Below, piece by piece: positions 12,256 to 25,619 of a DNA stretch of 25,619 nucleotides. The stretch spans positions 2,222-27,840 of the IMG/VR virus record IMGVR_UViG_3300000553_000261; one strand, given 5' to 3'. This DNA comes from a virus. Position 1 is the first letter of the stretch. Each line of letters begins with the position of its first letter. The translations under genes and the position numbers were made by a program. Under the pieces are notes generated by a model. It worked only from the letters and a program-made list of their open reading frames with translations, had not been told where the DNA came from and did not search any database.

Positions 12256-12324
12256 CGCAACAAATTACAAATGCAACGCAGGTGACTAGCGATTAGCATT
12301 GGCAAGTATTATTTAGGAGTAACG

Positions 12325-12645
12325 ATGGCAAACTACAACGGTGGACGAGTTCTTACCGAAACATTGACCGCAGGCTCTGCCGACCTTTGCCTCATGAGCG
12401 CACCTGGGGAAGCCGTCATTGTCACCAACATCACGGGGTCCGCTCCCATCTATTTCACGGTTGACAGGCCGGGTGGACCTTGCCCCGTGCCAACGGTCAA
12501 TGGTCAAAACTGCTTTGCCGTTGCTAACGCAGGAACTCGCGTGTCAGTACGACATGACGGAATGTACGGAAGTATCGTTCAGTTGATTTCTGCCGCATCG
12601 GTCCAATACACGATTGAAGTCGGCAGTCGCCAAGTCAACGTTTAG
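12325..12645 (+). CDS. Small beta-rich virion protein
   Basis: A 106-residue protein preceded by TTAGGAGTAACG, a good ribosome-binding site. It appears almost entirely beta-stranded (VLTETLTAGSADLCL, EAVIVTNITGSAPIYFTVD, FAVANAGTRVSVR, SVQYTIEVGSRQVNV). Size, fold type and position directly after the capsid gene suggest a head decoration or stabilising protein, but I cannot assign a family. Another small virion protein is equally possible. There is no signal peptide or membrane segment. Confidence 0.6.
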   Translation: MANYNGGRVLTETLTAGSADLCLMSAPGEAVIVTNITGSAPIYFTVDRPGGPCPVPTVNGQNCFAVANAGTRVSVRHDGMYGSIVQLISAASVQYTIEVGSRQVNV

Positions 12646-12658
12646 TAAGGAGAGAACA

Positions 12659-12928
12659 ATGGCAACAAAGATGTTCTTTAGTTCACAAAATTGCAAGGGC
12701 GTTACCTCTGGAGCAACTGGTCGCTCCTATGACACCGATAGCAAAGGCTTTATTCACGTTGAGGACAAACGCGATATCAAGTCATTGGCCGAAGGTGGAT
12801 ACGTTGTTGCTGGCACTCACCTTGCCAAGATTCGTTCTTTTTACCGTTGCGAGCCTTGCGGCTGGGAAACCCCGCTTAACCATTGCTCAAAGTGCGACAG
12901 CAACGACTTGGTAAAGGTGCAGAAGTAA
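12659..12928 (+). CDS. Small zinc-ribbon protein
   Basis: I start at ATG 12659, seven bases after AAGGAG, rather than at the in-frame TTG 12614 inside the preceding gene. That gives 89 residues. The N-terminal two thirds is a small alpha/beta region (GRSYDTDSKGFIHVEDKRD; SLAEGGYV), resembling small phage proteins made near the capsid gene. The C-terminus is a zinc ribbon: YRCEPCGWETPLNHCSKC, four cysteines in two CxxC pairs. It echoes the ribbons of the 899-residue head protein. The function is unknown; binding to nucleic acid or another virion protein is a guess. Confidence 0.65.
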   Translation: MATKMFFSSQNCKGVTSGATGRSYDTDSKGFIHVEDKRDIKSLAEGGYVVAGTHLAKIRSFYRCEPCGWETPLNHCSKCDSNDLVKVQK

Positions 12929-12937
12929 GGACAACAA

Positions 12938-13384
12938 GTGTCGGTTGAACCGAGTCACGGCTACACGTCAACCGGAAAACCCGTACACGCCGAGGTGCAC
13001 GACCACCTTCCCGAAGTTACCCGTTACCAGCGATTCAACAAACGACTAGCAACAGCGCTAACAAAACACGTCGGAACGATGACTTGTTTTTGGATATTCT
13101 GCGGATTGTCCATGCTGAGCCTGCCTGCAACATTGGTCCTGTCGAACGTCATTCCTGCCAACTGGATTCCCCCATTCTTTCGGACATTCGGATTTTCCCT
13201 GCTGATCGCTTGGATGTGTCAAAACTTTATTCAGTTGGTTCTCTTACCCGCACTAATGGTTGGGCAGAACTTACAGAATCAGGCTTCGGATGCTCGGTCT
13301 ACAAAAACCTTTGAGGACGTTCAGGAATTGAAACACGCAATCCAAAAAATCATCACCATGTTGGAGGACAAGACCAATGAGTAA
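12938..13384 (+). CDS. Two-pass membrane protein, DUF1003-related
   Basis: A GTG start at 12938, preceded by AAGG, gives 148 residues. A cytoplasmic-looking N-terminus is followed by YQRFNKRLATALTKHVGTM, a first membrane segment (about residues 48-70) and a second (about 80-105), then MVGQNLQNQASDARSTKTFED and a helical tail. The MVGQN..ASDAR segment matches a bacterial and phage membrane family that I associate with DUF1003-type proteins. The next gene is a clearer DUF1003 member, so the two may form a heteromer. Role unknown: envelope association or superinfection effects are possible. Confidence 0.6.
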   Translation: MSVEPSHGYTSTGKPVHAEVHDHLPEVTRYQRFNKRLATALTKHVGTMTCFWIFCGLSMLSLPATLVLSNVIPANWIPPFFRTFGFSLLIAWMCQNFIQLVLLPALMVGQNLQNQASDARSTKTFEDVQELKHAIQKIITMLEDKTNE

Positions 13385-13838
13385 CTGGCATCGGCATCCC
13401 GGAGTGGCAAGTGGAGATGAACTGACGCTCGGCGAACGGGCGGCAGATCGGATGAGGAACGCAATGGGCTCGTGGCCGTTTGTGTTCGTGTTCCTCGGAA
13501 TCATGCTCATTTGGGCAACGACCAATACGATTGTGTTGGGGAAAGTTGTCCGTCACCAATCCTTCGACCCATTTCCGTATGTGTTCCTGAATCTTTTTCT
13601 GTCAATGCTTGCTGGACTACAGGGAGCCATCCTTCTCATTGCCGCAAAGCGAGCCGATTCGATAGCATCTCAACAGGCAATTCATCATCTGGACGTGAGC
13701 GAGTCGCTGGTTAGGATGATGGAGCAAAACACGTCATTGACAAACGAGGTAAAAAGGGATACCGACCTGCTTCAGGAAATACACAAGCACGTCACCGCAC
13801 TATCGCCCAACTCAGGAGATTTCGAACCAAATGTTTAG
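13377..13838 (+). CDS. DUF1003 family membrane protein
   Basis: A 153-residue protein with DUF1003 hallmarks: ADRMRNAMGSWPFVFVF leading into a first membrane segment, W and N in WATTN, the FDPFPYVFLNLFLSMLAG block leading into the second, and AKRADSIASQQAIHHLD. A helical tail follows (SLVRMMEQNTSLTNEVKRD). In the family the loop usually reads FDPYPFILLNL and the segment after the second helix reads SQNRQ; here it is AAKRAD, a divergence. Eight-base overlap with the previous membrane gene implies coupled translation. DUF1003 has no established biochemical role that I know of, so none is claimed. Confidence 0.75.
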   Translation: MSNWHRHPGVASGDELTLGERAADRMRNAMGSWPFVFVFLGIMLIWATTNTIVLGKVVRHQSFDPFPYVFLNLFLSMLAGLQGAILLIAAKRADSIASQQAIHHLDVSESLVRMMEQNTSLTNEVKRDTDLLQEIHKHVTALSPNSGDFEPNV

Positions 13839-14211
13839 CCTCGTACTCATTGCCGTACTGTCCATGATTGTCAAAGACTTGGTGAGTGTATTTTCAGTCG
13901 TTGCCCAGGCACGAGGAAATGAACGCCTTGCTGGCGCACTCAACCCATTCGGAACTGTTGCCAGCATCATGTTCTATTCGGTTGGAACGCTGGGCCTTGT
14001 TCACGGACACGGCATCGCCGGATATCTGTGCCTCATCCCCGTGCTCATCGTTGACTACGTTGACGGAAGGTTATTTACGGCAGTCAGTCGCTCGATTCAA
14101 AGCGATGAGACCTCCGAGAGCGCTGGAGTCGGAGTAATCCTAAAGGGCTTTGGAGTTGTCGGAAAAGATTGGTTCCAATCGGCAACTGGGTGGTTGCGCC
14201 ATGACCGATAA
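13831..14211 (+). CDS. Small multi-pass membrane protein
   Basis: This 126-residue protein has an N-terminal hydrophobic helix (FSLVLIAVLSMIVKDLVSVFSVV) and two more hydrophobic segments (about 40-60 and 62-78: IMFYSVGTLGLVHGHG and AGYLCLIPVLIVDYV). A soluble C-terminus with WFQSATGWLRHDR follows. I do not recognise the family. Number of passes and size would suit a holin, but it is far from the endolysin gene at 18009 and is instead coupled to the two DUF1003-type genes, so a shared membrane function with them is equally likely. Confidence 0.55.
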   Translation: MFSLVLIAVLSMIVKDLVSVFSVVAQARGNERLAGALNPFGTVASIMFYSVGTLGLVHGHGIAGYLCLIPVLIVDYVDGRLFTAVSRSIQSDETSESAGVGVILKGFGVVGKDWFQSATGWLRHDR

Positions 14212-14686
14212 GAATAAGGAAGTACAGGCCCACGACCAGATAGCGGCACACCGTTATCTAATGCACTACCCAGAACACCCGACTCGTGAGGGTGACCCAA
14301 ACTACGTGGACTTCAACCACTACCACAGAGAGCACAGAGCAACCGCTCGTTGCTTCATCGGTGAACGGATTGGTTTCCAAGACTGCAAGGATGCACAGGG
14401 AAAAGATGCCCCCGCTCCCGACAACGGAGAACAACCCGGATTAGAACTTCATCATGCCCACGTTGAGTTCTCTTTACAGAACGGCATTTCCCTAAAGGCG
14501 CTGGAGCATGATTACCCTGGAATCAGCGACCCGACGACGCTCGGTAAGTGGGTCGAGTCGGACGTGAACTTTCGCTGGCTCTGCGCTTGGCATCACCGTG
14601 GAGCGGCAGGTGCGCACACGGCCAGTCACTCGGATTGGGAAGCAAGCCAATATGTGATCGGTCTTATCGAAAAGGCCAACCCCTAG
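14201..14686 (+). CDS. HNH-like protein
   Basis: The ATG at 14201 lies inside the end of the previous gene and gives 161 residues; the in-frame alternative at 14150 would lie deep in that gene. The C-terminal half has GLELHHAHVEFSLQNG, and then NFRWLCAWHHRGAAGAH. The two histidine pairs and the LCxxHHRGxxGxH finish match an HNH/beta-beta-alpha metal nuclease core, and I recall this protein type in actinophages. Metal residues appear present. It may be a packaging-linked nuclease or a degraded homing enzyme; which cannot be told. No zinc-binding CxxC pairs are seen. Confidence 0.6.
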   Translation: MTDKNKEVQAHDQIAAHRYLMHYPEHPTREGDPNYVDFNHYHREHRATARCFIGERIGFQDCKDAQGKDAPAPDNGEQPGLELHHAHVEFSLQNGISLKALEHDYPGISDPTTLGKWVESDVNFRWLCAWHHRGAAGAHTASHSDWEASQYVIGLIEKANP

Positions 14687-14688
14687 AG

Positions 14689-14709
14689 AGCCCATTTTTT
14701 GCAAGGGCT
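14689..14709 (+). terminator. Hairpin ahead of promoter cassette B
   Basis: AGCCC (14689-14693) pairs with GGGCT (14705-14709) around an 11-base loop that contains six Ts. It follows the stop of the HNH-like gene by two bases and is followed by TTGAG rather than a T run. Its place before the promoter matches cassettes A and C. Confidence 0.45.
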
Positions 14710-14719
14710 TTGAGCATAC

Positions 14720-14749
14720 TTGACAAGAGATAAAATATAGACATATAAT
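14720..14749 (+). promoter_or_regulatory. Promoter of cassette B (consensus)
   Basis: TTGACA (14720-14725), 18 bases, TATAAT (14744-14749): both boxes are perfect sigma-70 consensus. The spacer has GATAAAATA (14729-14737). The ATG at 14756 is six bases after the -10. No Shine-Dalgarno sequence precedes the ATG, so the transcript should be leaderless. It is the strongest of the three related promoters. Confidence 0.88.
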
Positions 14750-14755
14750 TGGTTT

Positions 14756-15292
14756 ATGGAAACAACTACACAAATCACAATCCCCACAAAGTTCTACGAC
14801 GACCACGTGAGTCGTGGACTTGGTGGCGGCATCGTAATCAAAAGTGGCGTCAAGTTAAGCACCGTCGAAATCAACTATGCGGATTTGTGTGACTTACTCG
14901 GTGACGCCAATTACTACATCGAACTTTATGACGACAAGGAGATTCGCCAAGCCGGTGAAGCCGACCTTGGACTTCAAGGTTCCGCCAAGAGCACGAAGCG
15001 TCGCATCGAAGCGCACGTTGCGGAGCACGGCTGGCCAGAAGAGATTGTTTTGACCGCCGAAGAAATCGCCATCAAAGAAGCCGAATACAAAGCCGATCAA
15101 GAACACCTCCAAAAAGTTCGGCTCTACCTTGACGCAAAATTCGATGCCCGAAAGGTCGCAAGAGAAGCGTTTATGAAGGACATGTATTTCCATGAAAAGA
15201 ACGAATGGCTTTCCGACCGTGATCTCCAAGCCGCTTGGAAAGAAGAGTTCGATGTCAAGTTCGACGCTGAGTGGGAGGGGGAAATCCCTTAG
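14756..15292 (+). CDS. Unknown protein of cassette B
   Basis: A 178-residue protein starting METTTQITIPTKFYDDH, translated from an ATG with no Shine-Dalgarno sequence directly after a consensus promoter. It has an N-terminal alpha/beta part (GGGIVIKSGVKLSTVEINYADLCDLLGD, continuing with ANYYIEL) and a long, highly charged helical C-terminal part rich in Glu, Lys and Ala (EEIAIKEAEYKADQEHLQK). The family is not recognised, and no metal or catalytic motif is visible. As a gene with its own promoter between hairpins, it looks like an accessory gene expressed independently of the late operon. A host-takeover role would fit but is unproven. Confidence 0.7.
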   Translation: METTTQITIPTKFYDDHVSRGLGGGIVIKSGVKLSTVEINYADLCDLLGDANYYIELYDDKEIRQAGEADLGLQGSAKSTKRRIEAHVAEHGWPEEIVLTAEEIAIKEAEYKADQEHLQKVRLYLDAKFDARKVAREAFMKDMYFHEKNEWLSDRDLQAAWKEEFDVKFDAEWEGEIP

Positions 15293-15305
15293 TTACAAGG
15301 GTTTT
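15286..15305 (+). terminator. Intrinsic terminator after cassette B
   Basis: CCCTT (15286-15290), six-base loop, AAGGG (15297-15301), then TTTT. The stop codon TAG (15290-15292) lies within the hairpin. Stem and T run fit a short rho-independent terminator. It stands directly before promoter C. Confidence 0.6.
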
Positions 15306-15313
15306 AGGGGTAT

Positions 15314-15343
15314 TTGCGTCGGGATAAAATACGTGTATATAAT
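15314..15343 (+). promoter_or_regulatory. Promoter of cassette C
   Basis: TTGCGT (15314-15319), 18 bases, TATAAT (15338-15343), with GATAAAATA at 15323-15331 in the spacer. ATG 15350 begins six bases after the -10. From 15301 to 15343 it closely matches cassette A (GGTATTTG and GTGTATATAATTG in both). Confidence 0.8.
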
Positions 15344-15349
15344 TGGATT

Positions 15350-16006
15350 ATGGAAACGACACCGAACCAAGGAGACGAAATGACCATCACCCATCAAGAC
15401 CGCAAGCCACCCATCAAAACCGACGAGTGCGTCGGCACGTTCCGAAGCATGAACCGACCATCAGAAAATGTCTACATCTGCCCCGAGTGTGCTGGTCAGG
15501 TCGCCTGGACAAAATCAAAGGCTGGCAAGGCTTACATCTGCGACGTTGGTTATTACACCACGAACCCATTCGAGGGTGCTGGCCGAGAAGTGCGAATCTA
15601 CTTACCAATGAGCCCTCACTACAAGACCTGCGCCGAACGAGTTGAGGCGAACCTTGCAACCGAAGTCGAAATCACGGGCGACACCCGCGAGGTCATCCTG
15701 GCGCGCAAAGCCGAAGCCGAAGCCAAGCGTCTTGGTCGCACCAACGTCGGTGAAGTTGGCGAGAAGATCACGGTGACCGGAAACATCGTCAAGGCCTACG
15801 AGCGTGACGGGGCTTACGGCACCACTCAGCACGTCGTCGTTGAGACCGCCGACGGCAACTTGGTCGAAGCCGGTGGAACTGCCGCTTGGCTTTACCGAAT
15901 CGAAGTTGGCAACGAGGTCACAATGACCGGAACCGTCAAGAAGCACTTCACGCGTCAAGACGGAAAAGTCACGGTGCTCACCCGCTCAAAAGGGGAGGTG
16001 CTCTAA
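15350..16006 (+). CDS. Zinc-binding protein with C-terminal OB-like domain (paralogue 2)
   Basis: From ATG 15350 it has 218 residues. The TTG at 15314 is the promoter -35 and cannot be the start. A second in-frame ATG at 15380 has AAGGAG five bases upstream, so either a leaderless or a ribosome-site start is possible. Cysteines in YICPECAGQVAW, AYICDVGYY and HYKTC suggest a metal site unlike the DnaJ-like finger of the gene at 1053. The last ~85 residues (VGEKITVTGNIV, then VVVETADGN, then TAAWLY, then VTMTGTVKKH and TVLTRSKGEVL) align closely with the C-terminus of that protein. Nucleic-acid binding is inferred. Confidence 0.75.
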   Translation: METTPNQGDEMTITHQDRKPPIKTDECVGTFRSMNRPSENVYICPECAGQVAWTKSKAGKAYICDVGYYTTNPFEGAGREVRIYLPMSPHYKTCAERVEANLATEVEITGDTREVILARKAEAEAKRLGRTNVGEVGEKITVTGNIVKAYERDGAYGTTQHVVVETADGNLVEAGGTAAWLYRIEVGNEVTMTGTVKKHFTRQDGKVTVLTRSKGEVL

Positions 16007-16067
16007 GTCAACTTTCTCAACCCTCAACTGATAGCATGGGGCCGGTCGCTAACAAAGGATTGGCCTT

Positions 16068-17213
16068 ATGCTTATTGGTGCATTCACAACTGACTGGCAA
16101 CAGCACGCCGCCATTGACGAGGAACGGTCTCGTATCGAGGGCCGACAAGTTGCCATCGAAGGCAAGACTCAAATGTCGTTCGGTGGAACGTTCTACTACC
16201 GGGGCGCAATGCCGCTTACGGAGTTAGCCAAACATGACGAGTGGGATGTGAAACTTTCGTGGCGCTTCCAAACACAGCCAGACGGCAGTATCTCAATGAT
16301 GGACACCGAGGGCAACTGGTTCACTCCAGACATCGTTTGGACTCAGCGGTGGATGCACAAAGACGGACCAGAGCAAATGCGAAAAGCCCGAGCCGCCGGG
16401 CAAGTTGTTGTTTCCGACCTTGACGACGGCTTCTGGAATCTACCGAAGTCCAACATTGCCGCCGACACAACGAACCCTAAAAACAATCCAGACTTCAACC
16501 GTGACCACTACTTGAATTGCCTTCGGGAATCGTCACTCATCACGGTTTCAACTGACGCACTAGCAAAAGACATGGAGAGAATGTGCCCAGGAGTTCCCGT
16601 TGTCGTCTGCAAAAATGCGATTGACCTTGAGCGATGGATTCCGCACGACCCTGGCCAAGATGGATTCGTTGGCTGGGTTGGAGGAATTCAATGGAGAGCC
16701 AACGACCTGCAAATTCTTAGAACATCACTGCCGAAATTCTTGATGGAAAATGATTTGCCGATCTACCACGGAGGCGACAGCAACGTGGAGGGCGTGCCAA
16801 AGTTTTACGAGCAGATGGGCATTGACCCAACCAAGATCAAATGCTTCGCCTCACCGCTTTGCCACATTGCCGAATACCCAAATCTCTGGACGCCGATCAA
16901 CCTCGGGCTTGTGCCACTGGAGCATCATCCATTCAACGTTCGCAAGAGCCATCTAAAGGGACTGGAAGCATCGGCTTGTGGCATCCCGTTCATCTACTCA
17001 TCCAAGATGCCAGAGTATGAAGCGTTCGGAGCGGGAATAATGGCCGACAACGCCAAGCCGAAATCTTGGAGGGCGGCACTCGACTCGATGCTTGACCCCG
17101 ACGCCCGACGAGCGGAAGGCAAGCGCAATCGGGAAATAGCCGAGCAGTGGGACATCACCCAAAAATGGAGTCAATGGGATGATGCACTAAGGACAGCCAC
17201 GGATTCAAAATAG
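16068..17213 (+). CDS. GT-B fold glycosyltransferase
   Basis: A 381-residue protein after AAAGGA. The C-terminal half reads like a GT4-type donor-binding domain: FVGWVGGIQWRANDLQIL, PIYHGGD, then GLVPLEHHPFNVRKSHLKG and LEASACGIPFIYS, the K..LE.sA.G.P..(Y)S block of retaining GT-B enzymes. The N-terminal half is less conserved, with VVVSDLDDGFWNLP and a STDALAKDM element seen in such enzymes. It should transfer a sugar from a nucleotide donor. It opens a cluster with two further glycosyltransferases, a methyltransferase, a beta-propeller glycosidase-like protein and an epimerase. Acceptor unknown; a virion protein is my inference. Confidence 0.75.
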   Translation: MLIGAFTTDWQQHAAIDEERSRIEGRQVAIEGKTQMSFGGTFYYRGAMPLTELAKHDEWDVKLSWRFQTQPDGSISMMDTEGNWFTPDIVWTQRWMHKDGPEQMRKARAAGQVVVSDLDDGFWNLPKSNIAADTTNPKNNPDFNRDHYLNCLRESSLITVSTDALAKDMERMCPGVPVVVCKNAIDLERWIPHDPGQDGFVGWVGGIQWRANDLQILRTSLPKFLMENDLPIYHGGDSNVEGVPKFYEQMGIDPTKIKCFASPLCHIAEYPNLWTPINLGLVPLEHHPFNVRKSHLKGLEASACGIPFIYSSKMPEYEAFGAGIMADNAKPKSWRAALDSMLDPDARRAEGKRNREIAEQWDITQKWSQWDDALRTATDSK

Positions 17214-18001
17214 TGAGTGCGGCGCTTGGAATTACGACCTACAACAGGCCCACGTTTGCCGACAAATGCTTTCGGTCCGTCAGGGACGCTGTAAGGCCTC
17301 TAGTTTCGCTTGTGAGCGTTTACAACGACGGGTCAGATGCGAAGTACCGAGCCGAGTATCGGCGAGCGTACGGGCGACTACAGGACGCCACCATAATTGA
17401 CGCTCAGGAAAACCACGGAGTTGCCTTTGCCAAGAATCGGCTCTTGGAGACCATGCTGGAACAGACCGATGCCGATTGGTTGTTTCTTTGCGAGGACGAC
17501 ATCCTTGTCAAATCGCCAGAAGCGATAACCGAGTACGTTCGCGTTGCGGAGGAAACGGGCATCCATCACTTTTCGTTTGCTTATCACGGAGAAGGAAATA
17601 GCGCTGGGCCGTCCATTAGCGACGGTCAAGTTGAGTATCACTTTCACAGTGTCGGCGCTTGGTGCATGTATTCACGCGAGTCGCTGGAAAAGGTTGGACT
17701 GTTCGACGAGAACTTCAACAACGCGTGGGAGCACGTTGAAATGGAGATGCGGCTCATTGACGCGGGCTTCATGCCGGGGTCGGCGGCACACCGCTATCCT
17801 GACGTTGTTGGCTCTAGTGTATGGTTGAAGGAAATACCAAACTCTATTGAAAAAAGTTCGATACGTCCAAGGGACGATTGGGAATCTTCAATTTTGCAAG
17901 GGCTCAGGTACTGGCACGATGCAAAACCCGAGACGTTCTCTCACTTGTTTGGTCCGGGTACTCACCTGGAAAACTACGCCAATAGGATTTTGAACTACTA
18001 G
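17213..18001 (+). CDS. GT-A (family 2-like) glycosyltransferase
   Basis: GTG 17213 shares its G with the previous stop. The 262-residue protein has the GT-A order: ALGITTYNRPTFADKCFRSV, VYNDGSD, ENHGVAFAKNRLLE, then WLFLCEDDILV with the acidic metal/nucleotide site, followed by GAWCMYSRESLEKVGLFDENF and WEHVEMEMRLIDAGF. These correspond to the N-terminal donor-binding region, the DxD-like site and the acceptor-side ED-like element of family 2 enzymes. It probably acts on the same glycan as the neighbouring GT-B enzyme. Sugar donor unknown. Confidence 0.8.
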   Translation: MSAALGITTYNRPTFADKCFRSVRDAVRPLVSLVSVYNDGSDAKYRAEYRRAYGRLQDATIIDAQENHGVAFAKNRLLETMLEQTDADWLFLCEDDILVKSPEAITEYVRVAEETGIHHFSFAYHGEGNSAGPSISDGQVEYHFHSVGAWCMYSRESLEKVGLFDENFNNAWEHVEMEMRLIDAGFMPGSAAHRYPDVVGSSVWLKEIPNSIEKSSIRPRDDWESSILQGLRYWHDAKPETFSHLFGPGTHLENYANRILNY

Positions 18002-18008
18002 GAGAGCA

Positions 18009-18848
18009 ATGACCACCACGATGTACGACGGGGTTAATCCCGCTACCGTGCCACCTGGAGCGAACGTTTACGCTGGTTACGTCAATGGAAATTGGCCTAC
18101 CTACAACGACTTTGTGCAGATGTACCCGAACGCACAACACGTTTCCATCACCGTGAACTCGGGTGGAACGGCACAGGTTCTCGACGTTGAAAACGGCGAT
18201 GCCGCCGCAGTTGACGTACCCGCTTGGCTCAACCGCATGAGGGCCGCTGGTATTCAACGACCAACTGTTTATTGTTCACGAGTCGGAGCACCGGGATACG
18301 GTTGGCAAAACGTCATTGACGCTTGTAACTCCGCTGGGGTGGCTCTGCCCGACTTTTGGATTGCCGACTACACGAGCGGGCCACACGCACTTAGCCTCAA
18401 CGGAGTGAATGCCGTTGCCGTGCAGTGGACCGATCACGGCGGTTACGACGAAAGCGTCATCAACGACCCAACGTGGCCAGCGCCTTCGGCTAAGCCTCAC
18501 ACTTGGAGCGGTCCCTCGGTATTGAAAGCAGGGGAAACGTTGCATCAAGGCAAATGCCTCGCCTCACCCAATGGCCAGTACGGAGCGCTCTTGCAAACGG
18601 ATGGAAACTTCGTTGTTTACAACAACATCAACCAGCCGCTATGGGCCGACGGTTGCAGTAGCGTTTACGGAGAGACCTTCGTTGAAATGCAGACCGATGG
18701 GAACCTCGTCCACTATCTATGGAACAACCACGCAATGTGGTCGTCCGCCACTCAAGGCAAAGGTGGGAACAGAGTAGAGATGCAAGACGACGGAAACCTC
18801 GTTATTTACACACCTCAAAATAAGCCCGTTTGGGCTAGTAAGAAATAG
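18009..18848 (+). CDS. Glycoside-hydrolase-like endolysin with bulb-type lectin domain
   Basis: This 279-residue protein follows GGAGAG. Residues 1-155 resemble GH25/DUF1906-type lysozyme-like domains: YDGVNPATVPPGANVYAGYV, a strand ending VLDVENGDA with candidate acidic catalytic residues, PAWLNRMRAAGIQRPTVYCS, FWIADYT and VAVQWTDHGGYDES. Residues ~163-279 form a bulb-type (mannose-binding) lectin domain with three QxDGNxVxY-like sites: QTDGNFVVY, QTDGNLVHY and QDDGNLVIY. The likely role is cell-wall degradation at lysis with the lectin anchoring it to a surface glycan. A virion-associated wall hydrolase is the alternative. There is no signal peptide. Confidence 0.7.
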   Translation: MTTTMYDGVNPATVPPGANVYAGYVNGNWPTYNDFVQMYPNAQHVSITVNSGGTAQVLDVENGDAAAVDVPAWLNRMRAAGIQRPTVYCSRVGAPGYGWQNVIDACNSAGVALPDFWIADYTSGPHALSLNGVNAVAVQWTDHGGYDESVINDPTWPAPSAKPHTWSGPSVLKAGETLHQGKCLASPNGQYGALLQTDGNFVVYNNINQPLWADGCSSVYGETFVEMQTDGNLVHYLWNNHAMWSSATQGKGGNRVEMQDDGNLVIYTPQNKPVWASKK

Positions 18849-18856
18849 TGTGAGTC

Positions 18857-19252
18857 ATGTCCGCTGGCGAACCCAACTACACGAACCACGCAACTATCAG
18901 GGAGACCTACGACCTAGTTAATGAAACCAGGGTCGAACTTAATGAACGGATTGACGGACTTGGAGAAAAGTTCGACGCCTTCGTTACTAGCAACGAACAT
19001 CGCCTCACAATTTTAGAGACCCACCAGGGCGCTCAAGCCGATCAACTCGTTCAAATGACAAGTCGGCTCGACGATCACGGCAAGATGATTGGAGCGCTCA
19101 AGGACGCACAGCGAGAAGAACAAGCAACTACGGAAGCCATCGAGGAGCAAAGCAAATCTCGTTGGTCAAATCGGACAACGAGAATCACCGTAGGTGCCTC
19201 AGTGCTACTCGCAACCGTATCCGTGCTGTCCCTCTTTCATGTAAAGTTCTAG
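18857..19252 (+). CDS. Tail-anchored coiled-coil membrane protein (lysis accessory?)
   Basis: A 131-residue protein with a long predicted coiled coil (ETYDLVNETRVELNERIDG to about residue 100) and one C-terminal membrane segment (TRITVGASVLLATVSVLSLF). This layout resembles XhlA-type hemolysin/holin-associated proteins and other phage proteins encoded beside an endolysin. It directly follows the endolysin-like gene, supporting a lysis role. A structural tail-anchored protein cannot be excluded. It is followed after two bases by the next gene. Confidence 0.55.
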   Translation: MSAGEPNYTNHATIRETYDLVNETRVELNERIDGLGEKFDAFVTSNEHRLTILETHQGAQADQLVQMTSRLDDHGKMIGALKDAQREEQATTEAIEEQSKSRWSNRTTRITVGASVLLATVSVLSLFHVKF

Positions 19253-19254
19253 GC

Positions 19255-19503
19255 ATGGAACAATGGCAGCCGGTAAGGGTGGTCTGGATTGATGCCCATG
19301 GCGGAGACGTCGGATGGGAAGAAAAAGATGCTTTGGAGCACAAGCCCTACGAAGTATCAACAATTGGATTCCTTTACCAACATGACGAGATTGGAGTTAC
19401 CGTCGTCATGAGTCTTTCCGATGAGCAAGTTGGTGGATACACCTTCGTGCCAAAGGTAAACATCGTCACTGTGGAACCGTTGTATCCTAACTCTGGTGCT
19501 TAG
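19255..19503 (+). CDS. Small beta-rich unknown protein
   Basis: Started at ATG 19255, two bases after the preceding stop; the in-frame ATG at 19162 would lie inside that gene. The 82-residue product has PVRVVWIDAHGGDVGWEE, VSTIGFLYQHDEIGVTVVMSLSDEQ and FVPKVNIVTVEPL. I recall similar ~80-residue proteins in many phages (W-D/DA, then GW, then a strand pair and IP..cI..v..L), with no assigned function. It is compact, soluble and without cysteine. The next gene starts at GTG inside its end. Confidence 0.6.
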   Translation: MEQWQPVRVVWIDAHGGDVGWEEKDALEHKPYEVSTIGFLYQHDEIGVTVVMSLSDEQVGGYTFVPKVNIVTVEPLYPNSGA

Positions 19504-20158
19504 GCTATTAGTCCTCGTTCCATCGCGCTGTCGCCCAAATAATGCGAAGCGGTTAATGGATGCTTGGCAATCCACCGGAGCAACTGCCGATCTATTATTC
19601 GGAGTTGACAACGACGACCCAACGCTTGCGGAATACGTCGCACTTGGTACACATATTGCCGTAGGACCAAGAATCAAAATTGGGCCGACGCTCAATTTCT
19701 TGGCTATGAAAAACGTTGAACGATATGACGCCATTGGATTCATGGGCGACGATCATCTTCCGATAACACACGAGTGGGACAAAAAAATTACCGAGGAGTT
19801 GGAGCGGCTCGGTACGGGCATCGTGTACGGCAACGACTTACTTCAAGGTGAGATGATTCCGACCGCAGTATTTATGACGGCGGATATCGTGAAAGCACTG
19901 GGTTACTTTTGCCCACCAACGTTGTTGCATATGTACCTAGACAACTCTTGGAAAGATTGGGGACAAGGAGCCGACTGCTTGCGGTATTTACCGGATGTCA
20001 TTATTGAGCACATGCACCCAGGCACGGGTAAGGGTTCCTTCGATTCCGTTTATGCCGAATCCAACATCCTCATGACGCCAGACCACACTCGTTATTTGGA
20101 ATACCGAGATGCCTTTCTTCAAGACGACATCGCTAAGATACGGGCCATCCGTGATTGA
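19496..20158 (+). CDS. GT-A-like glycosyltransferase
   Basis: GTG 19496 overlaps the previous stop by eight bases. The 220-residue protein begins LRLLVLVPSRCRPNNAKRLMDAW, has LLFGVDNDDP, GPTLNFLAM and then DAIGFMGDDHLPITHEWD, where GDDH is the expected metal/nucleotide motif of GT-A proteins. FMTADIVKALGY and a helical end follow. I recall this as a phage glycosyltransferase-like family. It is short for a complete family 2 enzyme, so activity is probable but not certain. It is next to an FkbM methyltransferase. Confidence 0.65.
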   Translation: MLRLLVLVPSRCRPNNAKRLMDAWQSTGATADLLFGVDNDDPTLAEYVALGTHIAVGPRIKIGPTLNFLAMKNVERYDAIGFMGDDHLPITHEWDKKITEELERLGTGIVYGNDLLQGEMIPTAVFMTADIVKALGYFCPPTLLHMYLDNSWKDWGQGADCLRYLPDVIIEHMHPGTGKGSFDSVYAESNILMTPDHTRYLEYRDAFLQDDIAKIRAIRD

Positions 20159-20822
20159 GTACAAACTTCACGAACCGTGTTGCCATGTACAACCAACGTT
20201 TTGGCTTCTCGATGGTGATATGTTCGCCCACTTTCTCGCGTGTCCTGGTGGACTGCCAGAGGCTCCGCTCATAGATTGGGCTTGGTCTATTGCCGGTAAG
20301 CCCGGAGGACTTTTCCTAGATATCGGCTCGCACGTTGGTTCGTGGGCATTGCCATTTGCGGCGGCGGGAATGGAAACGATTGCGTTTGAGCCAAATCCGG
20401 CGATTAGGCAGTTAATTGAACGCGCCTCATTCGACGAGCCAAATCTTTCCATCTTGCCGTATGCGTTGTCGGACTATGAAGGCGATGCACAACTTACGGC
20501 ACCGGGCATAGATGGAGGTATGGCCTCAATCGTTTGTGACTTCGGTCATGCTCCGGTCAACGAGAGTGTAATGGTCACATACCTCGACAATCTAAATCTC
20601 AAACCTTCCTTAATGAAAGTTGACGTGGAGGGGGCGGAGGTTGACGCTATCCGTGGAGCACGTCGCACTATTGCCGAGCACCAACCAGTTATCTTCTTTG
20701 AATGTTGGGAAGACGAACGTGGTCAACGACGCGAGGAATTGTTCTCCTGCGTTACCGATGAAATCAACTACAACTTGAATCGAACTGACTGGCCGGAAAT
20801 GTGGTTGGCAACACCGAGGTAG
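20151..20822 (+). CDS. FkbM-family SAM-dependent methyltransferase
   Basis: I choose GTG 20151, whose overlap with the preceding stop copies the pattern of the neighbouring gene; ATG 20109 lies further inside that gene. The 223-residue protein has SAM motif I (LFLDIGSHVGSWALPFA), the acidic second strand (TIAFEPNPAIRQLI), and the FkbM signature (LMKVDVEGAEVDAIRGAR), followed by VIFFECWED. FkbM enzymes usually make O-methyl groups on sugars or other small hydroxylated groups. The neighbouring glycosyltransferases and epimerase suggest O-methylation of a glycan. Confidence 0.85.
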   Translation: MIEYKLHEPCCHVQPTFWLLDGDMFAHFLACPGGLPEAPLIDWAWSIAGKPGGLFLDIGSHVGSWALPFAAAGMETIAFEPNPAIRQLIERASFDEPNLSILPYALSDYEGDAQLTAPGIDGGMASIVCDFGHAPVNESVMVTYLDNLNLKPSLMKVDVEGAEVDAIRGARRTIAEHQPVIFFECWEDERGQRREELFSCVTDEINYNLNRTDWPEMWLATPR

Positions 20823-21622
20823 ACGCTCCCTCGCTGATGGAGTTGTGCAATAGCGCAACAACACAAATCCTTGTGGAGCAAACCGAAACAAATTGGTATC
20901 CATGTAATCCGAGTATTGCCCAAGGTCCCGATGGCTATGCCGCTATCGTTACGTTCCGAAATATCTATCGTCACACCGGCACGACTCAAACAATTCACGA
21001 CCCGAACGGATACATCCACACCCGCAATTTCTTTGCCCAACTTTCCCCCGATACGTTGCACGCTGTGGAGCCGTGGCGTGAGTTGGCTGGCCCATCAACA
21101 CCCATCCACTTTGCGTCGGTTCAGGGAATCGAAGACCCCAGGTTGTATTGGCATAACGGCTGGCGTTACACCGGCACGATTCTTCAACATCATGCGAGTG
21201 GAGAGCATCGCGTTGCCGTCTGTGATGTTGAGCACGGACTCTTGGAAATACGAGAAGCATCGGCAGGAACGATCATCAAGAATCAAATGCCGACGGGTGG
21301 CGAGCCGGAGTTCATTGACGCCAAGGCTTGCGAAGATCGTTTGCATGGCGGAGCAGTAGTTCGGAATGAGAATGGCTATATTGGAATTGTTCACGAGGTG
21401 AGATGGCCAGGACGCGTTTACGTGCATCGGCTGGCACGGTTTGACCGAACCGGAAAACTCCTCTCGGAGTCTCGTCCATTCAAGTTGAGCACCGAGCCCA
21501 TTGACTTCGCATCGGGCATTGTGTTGCACAAGGACGATTTGGTGATTAGTTTTGGCGTGATGGACCGTCAGGCGTTGCTTGTTCGGATTCCTTTTGGCGA
21601 AAGTAAAGGACTGTTTGCATGA
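20801..21622 (+). CDS. GH130-like beta-propeller glycosidase/phosphorylase-type protein
   Basis: The only long start is GTG 20801, a 22-base overlap with the methyltransferase gene. The 273-residue protein shows repeated propeller blades: YPCNPSIAQGPDGYAAIV, VQGIEDPRLYWHNGWRY, HGGAVVRNENGYIGIVHEV, and FASGIVLHKDDLVISFGV. The EDPR block and the overall order resemble GH130 (mannoside phosphorylase/mannosidase) and related five-bladed proteins, which in bacteria often occur beside glycosyltransferases. It could trim or bind the glycan that the cluster builds. Catalytic activity is not established. Confidence 0.55.
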   Translation: MVGNTEVDAPSLMELCNSATTQILVEQTETNWYPCNPSIAQGPDGYAAIVTFRNIYRHTGTTQTIHDPNGYIHTRNFFAQLSPDTLHAVEPWRELAGPSTPIHFASVQGIEDPRLYWHNGWRYTGTILQHHASGEHRVAVCDVEHGLLEIREASAGTIIKNQMPTGGEPEFIDAKACEDRLHGGAVVRNENGYIGIVHEVRWPGRVYVHRLARFDRTGKLLSESRPFKLSTEPIDFASGIVLHKDDLVISFGVMDRQALLVRIPFGESKGLFA

Positions 21623-22515
21623 GGGCATTAGTTACAGGCTCCGAGGGATTTCTTGGTAGGCACTTTGTCGAGCACTTGACGCGTGAGGGCTGGTTAGTTA
21701 GTGGAGTTGATGTCAGGGACAAGAACACGCCGATGGACGCACGGGACGTATTTCGCAAGTGGAGTGGACCGTGGGACCTCGTTGTGCACTGTGCCGCAGT
21801 TGTTAATGGGCGACAGACGATTGAGCGGTCCCCAATGGACCAGATTGTTGACTTTGAACTTGACGCAGCGCTTTTCCGTTGGCTAGGAGAGGTCGAAGTT
21901 GGCAAGACGGTCTACTTCTCATCTTCAGCGGCTTACCCAGTTGAACTTCAAACGGTGCAAGCCAAATCGGTGAAACTCAGGGAAGTCCACGTTAATTACG
22001 ATTGGCCAGACTTGCCCGACGAACTCTACGGGTGGACAAAATTGACCGGCGAGAGATTGGCGATAAAGGCGAGGGAAGCGGGACACAACATTTTGGTTGT
22101 GCGACCGTTCTCGGGATACGGCTCCGATCAAGACGATTGCTACCCGTTTCCAGCAATTATGAAACGAGCATTGGCCAAGGAAAATCCATTCGTTGTTTGG
22201 GGCTCGGGCCAGCAAGTGCGGGACTTCATCCACGTTGACGACATTGTTGGAGCAGTGATGACGCTTCTAAACACAAGCGAGCCAGGGCCGATCAACATTG
22301 GAACGGGTCGTGGAACTTCGATGGCCGAACTTGCTCAGATGGCGGCAAAGCAGTGTGGGTGGGTTCCTGAAATAACTCCGCTTGCCGATGAGCCGGAAGG
22401 CGTGATGTATCGAGTTGCCGATATGTCAACCCTCAAACTGTTTTACACTCCAAGGATTACACTGGAAGAAGGGGTGGAACGATCACTCTTCGAACTTCGC
22501 AACAGTGTCAAATAA
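21619..22515 (+). CDS. NAD-dependent epimerase/dehydratase (extended SDR)
   Basis: A 298-residue extended short-chain dehydrogenase. The N-terminal Rossmann motif is RALVTGSEGFLGRHFVEHL, followed by VVHCAAV, YFSSSAAYP and YGWTKLTGE, which supplies the YxxxK catalytic pair. VRPFSGYGSDQ, VRDFIHVDDIVGAVM and INIGTGRGTSMAEL are typical of nucleotide-sugar 4-epimerases, 4,6-dehydratases and reductases. It probably makes or converts the sugar nucleotide used by the adjacent glycosyltransferases. The exact sugar cannot be read from sequence. A four-base ATGA overlap joins it to the beta-propeller gene; a terminator follows. Confidence 0.85.
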   Translation: MRALVTGSEGFLGRHFVEHLTREGWLVSGVDVRDKNTPMDARDVFRKWSGPWDLVVHCAAVVNGRQTIERSPMDQIVDFELDAALFRWLGEVEVGKTVYFSSSAAYPVELQTVQAKSVKLREVHVNYDWPDLPDELYGWTKLTGERLAIKAREAGHNILVVRPFSGYGSDQDDCYPFPAIMKRALAKENPFVVWGSGQQVRDFIHVDDIVGAVMTLLNTSEPGPINIGTGRGTSMAELAQMAAKQCGWVPEITPLADEPEGVMYRVADMSTLKLFYTPRITLEEGVERSLFELRNSVK

Positions 22516-22517
22516 CT

Positions 22518-22541
22518 CCCTAGTGGTAGGGTGGTTTTGTT
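22518..22541 (+). terminator. Terminator closing the sugar cluster
   Basis: CCCTA (22518-22522), loop GTGG, TAGGG (22527-22531), then a T-rich run (TGGTTTTGTT). It begins two bases after the epimerase stop. Stem and T-rich tail support a rho-independent terminator that separates the sugar genes from the fibre genes. Confidence 0.6.
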
Positions 22542-22553
22542 GACACCCAACAA
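22537..22553 (+). promoter_or_regulatory. Leader hairpin next to the fibre operon ribosome-binding site
   Basis: TTGTTG (22537-22542), loop ACACC, CAACAA (22548-22553): a perfect six-pair stem. Its 3' arm ends on the first bases of AAGGA (22552-22556), the likely ribosome-binding site for ATG 22566. It could limit translation start, or be a processed 5' end. It competes with the terminator T run for bases 22537-22541. Confidence 0.4.
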
Positions 22554-22565
22554 GGATACTCGCAC

Positions 22566-22940
22566 ATGGCAACAATCAACCAACTACCTGCGGCGCTGAC
22601 ATTCAATGGGGTCGCCGGTAATCCTGCCAACCTTCTTTTCACCTTAACGCTAACCGACTCAAATGGGGATACGATTCCCTGGAATCAGGTAACGGGCTAT
22701 GAGGTTCAAGTTGCCGATCAGTACGGAACCTACTTTCCCAACCTTGTTCCGGCAATTACGTCGCCGAGCAATTATCAGATAAGCATTATCTGGACCACAT
22801 CACAAACTCAGACGCTTGGAGAAATTCAACAACCACGAATGGCCTTGTCAATTTTCCTTGACAGTGACGGACCGTACACGCTTGTTTCTGGGCCAATCAA
22901 CATGATTGCGCCTCAGTATCCGAACCAAACATCCTCATAA
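22566..22940 (+). CDS. Small beta-rich fibre-associated protein
   Basis: A 124-residue protein after AAGGA with beta strands throughout: [41 protein letters not shown] and [11 protein letters not shown]. It resembles small domains that begin or accompany phage baseplate and tail-fibre proteins (BppU N-terminal type), but I cannot assign a family with certainty. It is fused by TAATG overlap to the collagen-like fibre gene, so the two are likely made together, and it may connect the fibre to the tail or act as its chaperone. Confidence 0.55.
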
Positions 22941-25619
22941 TGACCGATGAATACCTCGACGTAACGGTTGGGCCAGCGGGACCCGTTGAAGTAGGTGCCT
23001 ATGTGAGCACTTCCTCGGTTGGCGTCCAAGCGAACGTTGGTGAGATTGGCCCTATCGAAATCAGCACCGAGGTTGGTACGGTCACGGTTGAACTTACGGT
23101 TCAAACTGGAGCGGGTGGAGCAGAGGGCGCTACTGGACCAATCGGCCCTACGGGACCTCTTGGAAATACTGGTCCTACGGGACCCACCGGAAAAAGCGGC
23201 GCTACGGGCTCAACGGGACCGCAAGGAAATGTTGGAGGGAGTGGGGCAACGGGCTCTACGGGTCCTCTTGGAAGTACTGGAGCGACAGGCTCTGTCGGAC
23301 AAAGCGGCGCAACCGGAAGCACAGGACCAGTTGGCAACACAGGAAGCACGGGGCCAGCGTTCACGGGTGCCACGGGAGCGACAGGTCCACAAGGATTTAC
23401 AGGCGCAACAGGCGTTCAAGGAGCGGCGTTCTCGGGCGCTACGGGACCTACGGGTAACACTGGCGCTACAGGGCCTCTTGGAAATACCGGCAGTACCGGA
23501 CCTCAAGGTAACACCGGCGCAACGGGACCGACCGGGCAAAGCGGAGCCACTGGAAGCACGGGTCCAATCGGACAAAGCGGTGCGACGGGTAGCACGGGTC
23601 CTCTTGGCAACACTGGTTCAACGGGACCGACAGGAGCGGCGTTCTCGGGAGCAACTGGCTCAACGGGACCCGTTGGCTCAACTGGCGCTACGGGTGCATC
23701 GTTCACGGGACCTCAAGGTAATACCGGAAGCACTGGGCCGATTGGTGGAACCGGACCGACAGGAGCGGCATTCACGGGGGCGACAGGAGCAACGGGTGCT
23801 TCATTCTCAGGTGCAACCGGACCACAAGGAAATACTGGAAGCACTGGGCCTCAAGGAAATACTGGGGCGGCATACTCAGGAGCAACGGGTTCGACAGGTC
23901 CTGTTGGAAACACGGGAGCGACTGGACCGATTGGCGCAAGCGTTATCGGAGCGACGGGCGCAACGGGACCAACGGGCGAAACGGGCGCTCAGGGAAATAG
24001 TGGAGCCACAGGACCGACTGGGCCAGACGGGAACACTGGACCGAGTGGTGCTACGGGAAATACGGGCTCAAGTGGACCCATAGGACAAAGCGGAGCAACC
24101 GGCTCGACCGGACCAATCGGACAAAGCGGAGCAACCGGCTCGACCGGACCGAATGGAAATACTGGTGCTACTGGGGCGGCATTTAGTGGTGCGACGGGAC
24201 CGCAAGGAAATACAGGCGCAACGGGAGCGGCATTTTCAGGGGCTACAGGAAGTACGGGTCCCATCGGACAAAGCGGAGCCACGGGTTCAACTGGTCCATC
24301 GTTTACCGGAGCGACGGGTGCGACAGGACCTCAAGGAGCGACGGGTGCTTCGTCAAACCTAAATGCCCACGCGTCTTGTCAGGTATCAGATTACGGCCTT
24401 GGAACCTACGTCAATGTTGGCGGAAACTGTTCCTACACGCCAGGAACGCTTGACGCCACGGGTGGGTACGGAATCGGCGCTTCCATTACCGCAGTTGGCA
24501 ACGGTGCTCTCGTTCTCGATGGCGTAACGCTTCTAGTCAATCAAAGAGTTCTTGTGGCGAACAACGCTGGAGCCAACGCCATCTACAACGGCATCTATGT
24601 GGTTAATGCTACAGGCTCACCCTCTACACCTTGGTCGCTCATCCGATCAACGGACTACAACAATTCAGTTGTTGGAGAAGTGGGACCTGGCGACTACACC
24701 TTGATTGTTGCTGGAACGATAAATGCAGGTAAGACCTTTGAGCAAATTTCTTATGGCACTTACGGAACCGAAGGTGACATCATCATCGGCACCAACCCGA
24801 TTACATGGACCGCCGTGTCGGGGCTTGGTGCGACGGGTGCGACGGGACCACAGGGAACGGGTGGAGCGCTTGGAAATTGGGGAGGGTTCTATTCGCTTAT
24901 TGACCAAACCGCATCGGTCGCCAACACCGCCTATCCAATCACGCTAGAAAACACTTACGCCGCATACGGTGCAAGCATCTCTAACAATAACGACATCGTT
25001 TGGCAAGCGGCTGGAACCTACAACTTGCAATTCTTGGTTCAATTTGGAAATACCGATAACTCTATCCACGAAGCAAACGTGTGGTTACGTCAAAATGGCA
25101 GCGACGTGCCAAGCACGAACACGCTCATCTCGGTTCCCAACAAACACGCTGGAACCAACGGTTACATCACGAACATCGCCAACTTCATCTTCCCAGTCAA
25201 TTCTGGCGACAACGTGCAACTCATGTGGTCCACGAACAACACGGGTGTATTCATCAACTCATCGGCTTCAGTTGCTCCTGCCCCTGCAACGGCTGGTGCC
25301 GTGGTAACCGTACAACAAGTGATGTACACGCAAATTGGACCAAGCGGAGCGACGGGTCCGATTGGCGCAACGGGAAGCACCGGCCCAATCGGAAATACCG
25401 GCGCAACGGGAGCCGCATTTTCGGGAGCCACCGGTCCCACAGGTGGAACGGGTGCGACAGGAGCCGCTTACTCGGGCGCTACGGGCTCGACAGGGCCAGC
25501 GGGAAATACCGGAGCAACAGGACCCATCGGCGGGAGCGGAGCCACAGGTAGCACGGGACCTATTGGTAATACGGGTAGCACGGGACCGCAGGGAGCGACG
25601 GGACCGAGTACGGGTGTTG
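22940..25619 (+). CDS. Collagen-like tail fibre with C1q-like modules (3' truncated)
   Basis: The frame beginning at ATG 22940 stays open to the last base (893 codons visible). Residues 1-55 are a beta-rich N-terminus ([18 protein letters not shown]). Residues ~56-470 are Gly-X-Y repeats, mostly [12 protein letters not shown] and GPQ, broken about eleven times by five-residue units such as GAAFS, GASFT or GAAYS. A globular part at ~473-630 has CQVSDYG, then [23 protein letters not shown] and LIRSTDYNN, a module known from phage fibres. Another at ~643-800 ([37 protein letters not shown]) is C1q/jelly-roll-like. Collagen repeats then resume. It is the probable receptor-binding fibre; threonine at Y positions could be glycosylated. 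Confidence 0.85.
24083..24154 (+). repeat. Tandem 36-base repeat in the fibre gene
   Basis: Two adjacent near-identical 36-base units (24083-24118 and 24119-24154) encode [11 protein letters not shown] followed by I or N. They differ only at the end. The exactness at synonymous sites shows a recent duplication. Confidence 0.8.

Follow-up and report, generated by a model that had tools for sequence, protein, structure and literature searches.

Relatives of phage sugar enzymes recur beside threonine-rich collagen-like fibres and suggest glycosylation of the phage's own collagen

Phages are already known to glycosylate their virions, and giant viruses to glycosylate collagen. In the Bacillus protein BclA, the threonines of the collagen triplets are O-glycosylated by a tetrasaccharide whose end sugar is 2-O-methylated (PMC6222408), mimivirus L230 and R699 are virus-encoded collagen-glycosylating enzymes (PMC9546862), and virion glycosylation is cited for the mycobacteriophages Che8 and Rita (PMC11256854). 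Phage glycosyltransferases have otherwise been interpreted as modifying DNA or the host surface (PMC7029224, PMC10202952). Threonine occupies 48% of the Y positions in Gram-positive collagen-like proteins, its glycosylation is mentioned as a stabiliser of collagen, and a recombinant prophage collagen produced in E. coli was reported to be unglycosylated (PMC3368898), which agrees with a need for dedicated enzymes without proving it. Here we describe a window of 25,619 nucleotides, positions 2222-27840 of the 27,840-base environmental virus record IMGVR_UViG_3300000553_000261 and hence reaching the record end, in which glycan-type genes precede the gene of a collagen-like fibre. An initial annotation, made from the sequence alone, had proposed that the genes at 16068-22515 form a self-contained pathway that decorates the fibre or a capsid insertion with an O-methylated glycan, by analogy with BclA and with glycosylated mycobacteriophage virions. 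In unrelated phages, relatives of some of these enzymes recur beside similar collagens, suggesting that phages decorate their own collagen with sugars. The idea of a sugar-coated fibre thus gains comparative support, for a narrower gene set than was proposed. Among the open-licence papers listed in our searches, none dealt with phage collagen glycosylated by phage enzymes, none described a collagen-linked GH130/GT108-fold enzyme or GT2-TPR family in phages, and none placed GH130 or GT108 genes beside collagens.

Three genes carry the argument. The third lies outside the window on contig G001 (46 kb; locus L004), which is near-identical to it; the nine proteins from the GT-B glycosyltransferase through the 124-residue protein before the fibre are identical in both.

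20801-21622, + strand: predicted GH130/GT108-fold five-bladed propeller enzyme (model pLDDT 91), of a family associated with phage collagen fibres
22940-25618, + strand: collagen-like fibre, truncated where the contig ends, 892 residues in the window
L004 17737-18891, outside the window: GT4 glycosyltransferase, starting 36 bases past the fibre stop (PF00534, E 1.5e-16; phrog_3408 glycosyltransferase, E 2e-89)

The 892 fibre residues present in the window hold 101 G-x-T matches. The complete homologue (L004 12140-17701) has 1853 residues and 232 triplets in runs of four or more, 139 of them Gly-X-Thr, and it matches PF01391 at E 3e-67. The threonine-rich collagen fibre of the initial annotation is therefore upheld by its Gly-X-Thr repeat and its PF01391 match, but the "hundreds" of such triplets were too many. 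PF01391 was the only family found in a profile search of the fibre at E 1e-3; a C1q/TNF-like C-terminal trimer domain is a feature of BclA-type collagen. Between the window and G001, the collagen-poor fibre residues from about 500 to 786 retain only 22-76% identity per 50-column block. Such high variability of a knob between otherwise near-identical contigs is an adhesin pattern, as expected of a receptor-binding part. Behind the GT4 gene, L004 18951-19910 and 19913-20425 were considered as connector genes by position; neither has a PHROG match.

The association of the GH130-like family with collagen genes is the main observation. Relatives were collected with three seed sequences, two of them from collagen contigs; at least 600 stretches matched and gave 332 relatives, of which 80 were kept. 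A collagen open reading frame (ORF) was present in 47 of these 80 loci before redundancy filtering. The window's own lineage, near-duplicates and a few others were then left out by hand, leaving 55, of which 46 were kept at below 85% identity. A collagen ORF lay within about 6 kb in 30 of these 46 non-redundant loci and in 2 of 97 random 14-mer loci (Fisher p 6e-17); 102 random loci had been fetched, the 97 of at least 4 kb were used, and the two collagen-bearing ones share one ORF, possibly as near-copies. The nearest collagen was on the same strand in 29 of the 30 loci. In 26 (25 of them same-strand), the collagen ended within an interval from 2000 bases upstream of the GH130-like gene to 94 bases inside it; in 12, it overlapped that gene or lay within 50 bases of it. 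To allow for the collagen-contig origin of two of the seeds, standalone relatives, those lacking a GT2 fusion, were also counted alone: 19 of 34 had a collagen, as did 11 of the 12 fused ones. Single linkage at 45% gave 16 clusters, 13 with a collagen-bearing member, and at 35% gave 7 clusters, 5 with one.

The assignment of this protein to the GH130-like group, made in the initial annotation, is borne out by structure and not by its own sequence, which gave no Pfam or PDB sequence match; PF04041 was not listed even at a maximum E of 10. Among 49 relatives, six matched PF04041 at E up to 0.01 (best 6e-5). The model was built on the 49-sequence alignment, a single-sequence model having reached a pLDDT of only 33. 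It superposes on the beta-1,2-mannobiose phosphorylase 7fip with Z 21.4 (3.3 A over 242 residues), on the mannoside synthase Uhgb_MS with Z 19.8, and on Leishmania mannosyltransferases and phosphorylase with Z of about 16, the GH130/GT108 entries in the Foldseek list showing 10-16% identity. A G-x-E-D-x-R motif is conserved, with E111 and D112 in 49 of 49 and R114 in 48 of 49 aligned sequences, and a weak profile match (E 0.085) places its Glu-Asp pair on the GLEDPR motif of 9fj8. This motif has a catalytic role in GH130/GT108 members. On the evidence of the model, membership of the GH130/GT108 propeller fold is confirmed; phosphorylase or transferase activity on mannosides is a candidate function. 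The two families share a fold and, for some members, substrates and mechanism (PMC8950772).

The best viral structure matches in BFVD were proteins of an uncultured Caudovirales phage and of Pithovirus. Outside phages, Pithoviruses and other giant viruses hold the viral structures closest to the model, so the fold family reaches eukaryotic giant viruses.

GH130-like relatives are also joined to a glycosyltransferase. Two proteins of a family that we call GT2-TPR, in whose short form the TPR matches are below cut-off, carry a GH130-like relative as their C-terminal part (E 6e-13 and 8e-13). Such fusions make up 18 of the 80 relatives and occur in Gly-X-Thr collagen records, and other long relatives, up to 601 residues, have no GT2 match. 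A tblastn search of named phages with the GH130-like protein found none; the named relatives described below were reached via a fusion relative.

A comparison between collagens of different triplet type bears on the acceptor. Threonine richness by itself was dropped as evidence, given its 48% share of Y positions in Gram-positive collagens (PMC3368898). Viral contigs were scanned for Gly-X-Thr runs and for control Gly-X-[KNDE] runs, with at least 120 stretches in each sample, and filtered for a collagen frame of at least 10 triplets, a contig of 15-110 kb and threonine share. The first batch comprised 61 Gly-X-Thr and 48 control loci on longer contigs, of which 39 and 25 passed, and the first 25 of the 39 and all 25 controls were used. 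The second batch drew on 19 and 21 additional loci. Sixteen and 13 of these survived filtering, and adding the 14 unused Gly-X-Thr loci of the first batch brought the numbers to 30 and 13. The controls exclude at least four loci that fit both triplet patterns. GT2 glycosyltransferases occurred in 10/25 Gly-X-Thr against 3/25 control records in the first batch (p 0.051) and in 13/30 against 0/13 in the second (p 0.004); pooled, the counts were 23/55 against 3/38 (p 3e-4), or 20/55 against 3/38 over the curated cut-off only, between sets unmatched for habitat, phage type and contig size.

One family, GT2-TPR, accounts for 12 of the 23 GT2-positive Gly-X-Thr records, with 33-78% identity among listed pairs; it is on the same strand as the collagen and downstream of it in all 12, within 4 kb in 10. 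Searched with the member from record G020, it had relatives in 11/120 Gly-X-Thr, 0/116 Gly-X-[KNDE] and 0/102 random loci. For GT4 the figures were 4/120, 0/116 and 0/102 (p 0.015 against both control sets). Relatives of the other window genes were too few for this comparison: Gly-X-Thr and Gly-X-[KNDE] loci gave 2/120 and 1/116 for the GH130-like protein, 2/120 and 1/116 for the epimerase, 1/120 and 0/116 for the GT-A protein, and 0/120 and 1/116 for the FkbM protein. FkbM proteins were present in 8/35 GH130-like records against 2/50 collagen records (p 0.014), the 35 being those of the 46 non-redundant loci used for this count, mostly longer records. The GT2-TPR proteins of three Gly-X-Thr records (G036, G078 and G080; L370, L380 and L382) have an extra N-terminal stretch resembling a SAM methyltransferase, a motif seen by eye.

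The same kinds of gene recur together in other phages. L243 has a small protein, a collagen (88 triplets, 69 with threonine) and a GT4 relative (47% identity) starting 10 bases on. A GT4 relative (33%) is flanked by two Gly-X-Thr collagens in L229, and GT4 relatives (44-45%) lie 2-3 kb downstream of collagens in L213 and L216. The run in L141 comprises a small protein, a Gly-X-Thr collagen, an 87-residue ORF, a GT-A relative (38%), a further protein and an epimerase relative (45%), and L177 has a 1471-residue Gly-X-Thr collagen with a divergent GH130-like gene beside it. Small proteins occupy the position before the collagen in L141, L177 and L243, as in the window.

Among named phages, ACG-2014f has a threonine-rich collagen (gp15) and a GT4 protein (gp18), and the Synechococcus phage S-CAM7 two threonine-rich collagens (gp14 and gp15) and a GT4 protein (gp16). 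DSL-LC02 combines a collagen with a divergent GH130-like gene, annotated as beta-mannosyltransferase, and with an FkbM protein extended by a radical-SAM part. DSL-LC01, an Actinomycetia phage, has two collagens and a GT2-TPR protein 53% identical to that of record G089. In six of the seven named-phage collagens counted, all with at least 30 triplets, threonine is the commonest third-position residue (61/129, 61/130, 77/205, 30/44, 22/33 and 28/46); in the seventh it is second to glutamine (17/38). Two further kinds of gene stand near these collagens. In DSL-LC01, a gene annotated as tryptophan halogenase (L577 6433-8004) separates the collagen genes from the GT2-TPR gene, and a 2OG-Fe(II) oxygenase gene, which could be a collagen hydroxylase, follows shortly after GT4 in S-CAM7 (L573 8972-9568) and ACG-2014f (L574 8079-8672).

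The remaining features of the window that concern the capsid and the sugar, lysis and fibre block are as follows.

10405-12183, + strand: major capsid protein (phrog_13692, no function given, E 2e-93; tblastn match annotated as major head protein of Alicyclobacillus phage MMB025)
16068-17213, + strand: GT-B-type glycosyltransferase (phrog_7162 glycosyltransferase, E 1e-25)
17213-18001, + strand: GT2 (GT-A) glycosyltransferase, partner of the GT-B gene (PF00535, over cut-off)
18009-18848, + strand: probable lysis protein with a GH25-like part and B-lectin, outside the glycan pathway (PF01453, E 4e-6; PF01183, E 4e-3; both below cut-off)
18857-19252, + strand: holin-like protein (phrog_1296 holin, E 1e-4 over 33 residues)
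19496-20158, + strand: second GT-A-like glycosyltransferase (phrog_14945, E 1e-54; no Pfam match)
20109-20822, + strand: FkbM-type methyltransferase (PF05050, 45.4 bits against a curated cut-off of 22.7)
21619-22515, + strand: NAD-dependent nucleotide-sugar epimerase/dehydratase/reductase (SDR; PF01370 best, E 7e-33; PF16363 GDP-mannose dehydratase, E 2e-18)
22566-22940, + strand: 124-residue protein before the fibre, placed by gene order (no Pfam or PHROG match)

Head-type genes run up to the major capsid protein, small genes follow, and the block begins at 16068 in the order GT-B, GT2, lysis-type genes, second GT-A, FkbM, GH130-like, epimerase, 124-residue gene, fibre. Six glycan-type genes lie within 16068-22515, and every enzyme class named there by the initial annotation is present: the GT-B, the FkbM methyltransferase and the epimerase by phrog_7162, PF05050 and PF01370, and the two GT-A-like transferases by PF00535 and phrog_14945. 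The pathway is not contiguous, as lysis-type genes (18009-19252) are interspersed, nor does the epimerase lead directly into the fibre, the 124-residue gene lying between them. From the second GT-A onward the ORFs overlap or almost abut by their coordinates, with a 4-base overlap between the GH130-like stop and the epimerase start, a 50-base gap from the epimerase to the 124-residue gene, and a 1-base overlap between the stop of that gene and the fibre start. The region resembles an actinophage late operon. Over the length of the cassette, terminator-like sites are not in excess (13 against 15.6 expected). Window positions 12300-25619 have no DNA similarity to named phages, an Rfam search of the window at gathering scores gave no match, and a tRNA search found none.

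Among the ten cassette proteins scanned with Pfam there is a single nucleotide-sugar enzyme, the SDR, and no nucleotidyltransferase. The system can thus not be called self-contained; with no complete sugar pathway in the window, donor sugars would come from the host. Neither these ten proteins nor GT4 has a lysyl hydroxylase or GGT-type enzyme among its Pfam matches. The best solved chain for the epimerase is a GDP-L-fucose synthase (E 9e-18), and the second GT-A is up to 43.6% identical to Streptomyces phage glycosyltransferases.

The GT-B/GT2 pair follows a different partner. The closest named GT-B relatives are glycosyltransferases of Arthrobacter and Streptomyces phages, and seven aligned relatives are 47-57% identical to the window protein. 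The GT2 protein matches two named-phage records, glycosyltransferases of the mycobacteriophages Myrna and ScoobyDoobyDoo (27.5% and 30% identity), Che8 not being among them; the organism tallies for GT-B (52 records) and the second GT-A (71 records) include no Mycobacterium phage. Of 19 environmental records with this capsid protein, some of which may be fragments, 14 have the GT-B, 9 the phrog_14945 GT-A, 7 an FkbM protein and 4 a collagen (3 over cut-off). Records G006, G009, G011 and G013 span the stretch from the capsid gene to the counterpart of the L004 gene at 18951 and have the GT-B, with no collagen between. The GT2 gene adjoins the GT-B gene or lies one or two ORFs away in G006-G010, G012, G015 and G018, and also in L088, L095 and L098. 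Several records have a changing set of sugar genes behind the pair, which in G006 comprises a SAM methyltransferase, a hexapeptide transferase, two further GT2 proteins and FkbM. The order in G011 is capsid, small gene, GT-B, methyltransferase, gene 18951, and in G011 and G012 less than 0.6 kb separates the capsid gene from the GT-B start. No collagen ORF was found in ten distant GT-B loci. Because the pair is kept in the absence of a collagen fibre and tracks the capsid lineage, it goes with that lineage and more likely serves it; we reject a single unit of all the glycan genes.

Bacterial genome contigs that carry a relative of the capsid protein point to the host. Of 19 such loci, 12 reach 40% identity; 11 of these are from Actinomycetota (Streptomyces, Frankia, Actinomadura and others), and one is a short contig of a Phenylobacterium metagenome-assembled genome. 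Judged by these sequences, the virus is probably a phage of Actinobacteria. A relative of the L004 gene at 18951 begins 0.3-1.6 kb past the capsid gene in 10 of the 11 Actinomycetota loci and 5.5 kb past it in the other, and the stretches examined in all 19 loci contain no collagen ORF and no relative of the glycan genes (phmmer, E 1e-4). The glycan, lysis and fibre block thus occupies a place where the bacterial relatives have little, and insertion is the simplest reading.

Two further observations concern the head genes. The capsid genes of the relatives G013, G014, G015 and G018 (L028, L029, L030 and L033) are apparently split by group I introns, with 10 Rfam RF00028 matches in these loci and GIY-YIG- or HNH-like ORFs (by eye) between the capsid pieces. 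In the window, an ADP-ribosyltransferase-like ORF at 1865-2728 (by eye; no Pfam match) has the tag WDES-HPRGAGGRF in common with the adjoining head protein (positions 1958 and 3046), and KGGPGSGPH occurs twice further on, at 5667 and 6128. Capsid targeting or cleavage is a possible function of the shared tag. Around 1998-3134, the window and G001 do not align.

We consider it probable that the locus combines two units, a virion-glycosylation pair of the capsid lineage (GT-B and GT2) and a separate fibre-glycosylation module; that the pair is the older of the two is the best reading. Glycosylation of the fibre, as initially proposed, retains its footing in the GH130-like and GT4 relatives beside collagens and in the enrichment of GT2 with Gly-X-Thr, but not as the work of one system, since GT-B and GT2 occur without collagen. 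The best candidate fibre enzymes would be the GH130-like protein, with its strong association, and GT4, with fewer cases; the epimerase, GT-A and FkbM proteins are plausible partners.

For these units we infer acceptors, sugar, linkage, methylation, order of steps, enzyme roles and benefit as follows. The first, GT-B (16068) and GT2 (17213), would place a glycan on a conserved part of the virion, most likely a capsid component, with the major capsid protein as a possible acceptor. The second would consist of GT-A, FkbM, the GH130-like protein, the epimerase, the small protein, the fibre and GT4, and its enzymes would put a short glycan, possibly O-methylated, onto the fibre. The most likely acceptor is the third-position threonine of Gly-X-Thr, because of the BclA analogy and because GT2-TPR is found near collagens of the Gly-X-Thr type and not near those of the Gly-X-[KNDE] type. 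Initiation or elongation of the chain would fall to GT4 or GT-A, and conversion of a host nucleotide sugar to the epimerase. The propeller enzyme would contribute a sugar, probably mannose-type, or else shorten the glycan by phosphorolysis, and FkbM would add the cap. The product may stiffen a triple helix that has no hydroxyproline, and protect or mask the fibre.

Several observations weigh against a dedicated fibre module. Threonine is common in bacterial collagens anyway (PMC3368898), two of the three GH130-like seeds derived from collagen contigs, and 16 of the 46 GH130-like loci have no collagen. Relative to the GH130-like gene, the collagen is downstream in the window lineage and upstream in most relatives. 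S-SCSM2R has a GH130-like gene with no collagen annotated within 7 kb, that of DSL-LC01 is far from its collagens, and a GT2-TPR relative in PaBG has no annotated collagen nearby. G007, the one further record of the capsid family with a clear collagen outside the window lineage, is poor in Gly-X-Thr (9/62 and 1/16 triplets). With Gly-X-[KNDE] loci as the sole control, GT4 does not reach significance (p 0.12), and FkbM is equally frequent in Gly-X-Thr and control records (1/25 each). Relatives of GT-A and FkbM also occur in the collagen-free G006 and G010, and one of the epimerase (E 4e-85) in L095, with no collagen ORF in the 21-kb locus examined, so these three need not serve the fibre.

All the glycan genes might instead decorate the capsid or another conserved part of the virion, the collagen being a mere neighbour in a crowded late operon. 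The GT-B/GT2 pair does track the capsid lineage regardless of collagen, G011 has a minimal GT-B and methyltransferase behind its capsid gene, and glycans on major capsid proteins are cited for Che8 and Rita (PMC11256854). Yet GH130-like and GT4 relatives stand near collagens in loci with no GT-B or GT2 relative in the examined stretches (0/120, 0/116, 0/102 and 0/79; phmmer, E 1e-5), and we regard this explanation as unlikely. A slightly smaller chance still is given to action on a host envelope polymer, for superinfection exclusion or receptor change, or on phage DNA. Phage glycosyltransferases have been so read in PMC7029224 and PMC10202952, but here the surrounding genes are structural, with the capsid gene on one side and the fibre on the other, and GH130-like, FkbM and GT4 relatives adjoin fibre genes in other phages.

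Depolymerase genes are often neighbours of phage fibre genes. The GH130-like protein might accordingly be a glycan-degrading depolymerase or phosphorylase that acts with the fibre on the host surface, its nearest folds being phosphorylases and the family including hydrolases by entry title (5a7v). Against this, 18 of the 80 relatives are fused to the GT2-TPR glycosyltransferase, and a mannoside synthase and the GT108 mannosyltransferases have the same fold; such a role seems about as improbable as action on host envelope or DNA. Beyond the two-unit reading, we put forward tentatively, as possible but short of probable, that phages share a mobile collagen-glycosylation toolkit, marked by the propeller alone or behind GT2-TPR and exchanged, at sites beside Gly-X-Thr collagen fibres, together with GT4 and GT2-TPR. 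The propeller would then build the threonine glycan on the phage's own collagen as a glycosyltransferase or reverse phosphorylase.

A gene set that accompanies collagen fibres in different phages suggests that phages glycosylate their own adhesin, and it names candidate enzymes. It offers a possible answer to how phage collagens are stable without hydroxyproline, and could yield simple enzymes for the production of glycosylated collagen in bacteria. Compared with known systems, the fibre resembles BclA of the Bacillus exosporium as a collagen-like protein with threonine in most triplets (139/232 here). BclA is a cellular spore protein, and a glycan on the phage fibre is predicted from the genes. 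With the GH130/GT108 mannoside phosphorylases and mannosyltransferases, the window protein shares the five-bladed propeller and the aligned Glu-Asp motif, at an identity of 10-16% and below the Pfam model. To our knowledge, virion glycosylation of the Che8/Rita type involves no collagen fibre and no GH130-like enzyme. That system (Freeman et al. 2023, cited in PMC11256854) has phage glycosyltransferases and actinobacterial hosts, as here, and is cited for capsid proteins, unlike the fibre acceptor proposed here. Mimivirus collagen glycosylation is hydroxylysine-linked and uses lysyl hydroxylase/GGT-type enzymes (PMC9546862), so that both enzyme families and acceptor differ from those of the window cassette. 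Should the tentative toolkit reading hold, viruses of prokaryotes would have their own equivalent of the collagen glycosylation of animals and mimivirus, reached by other chemistry.

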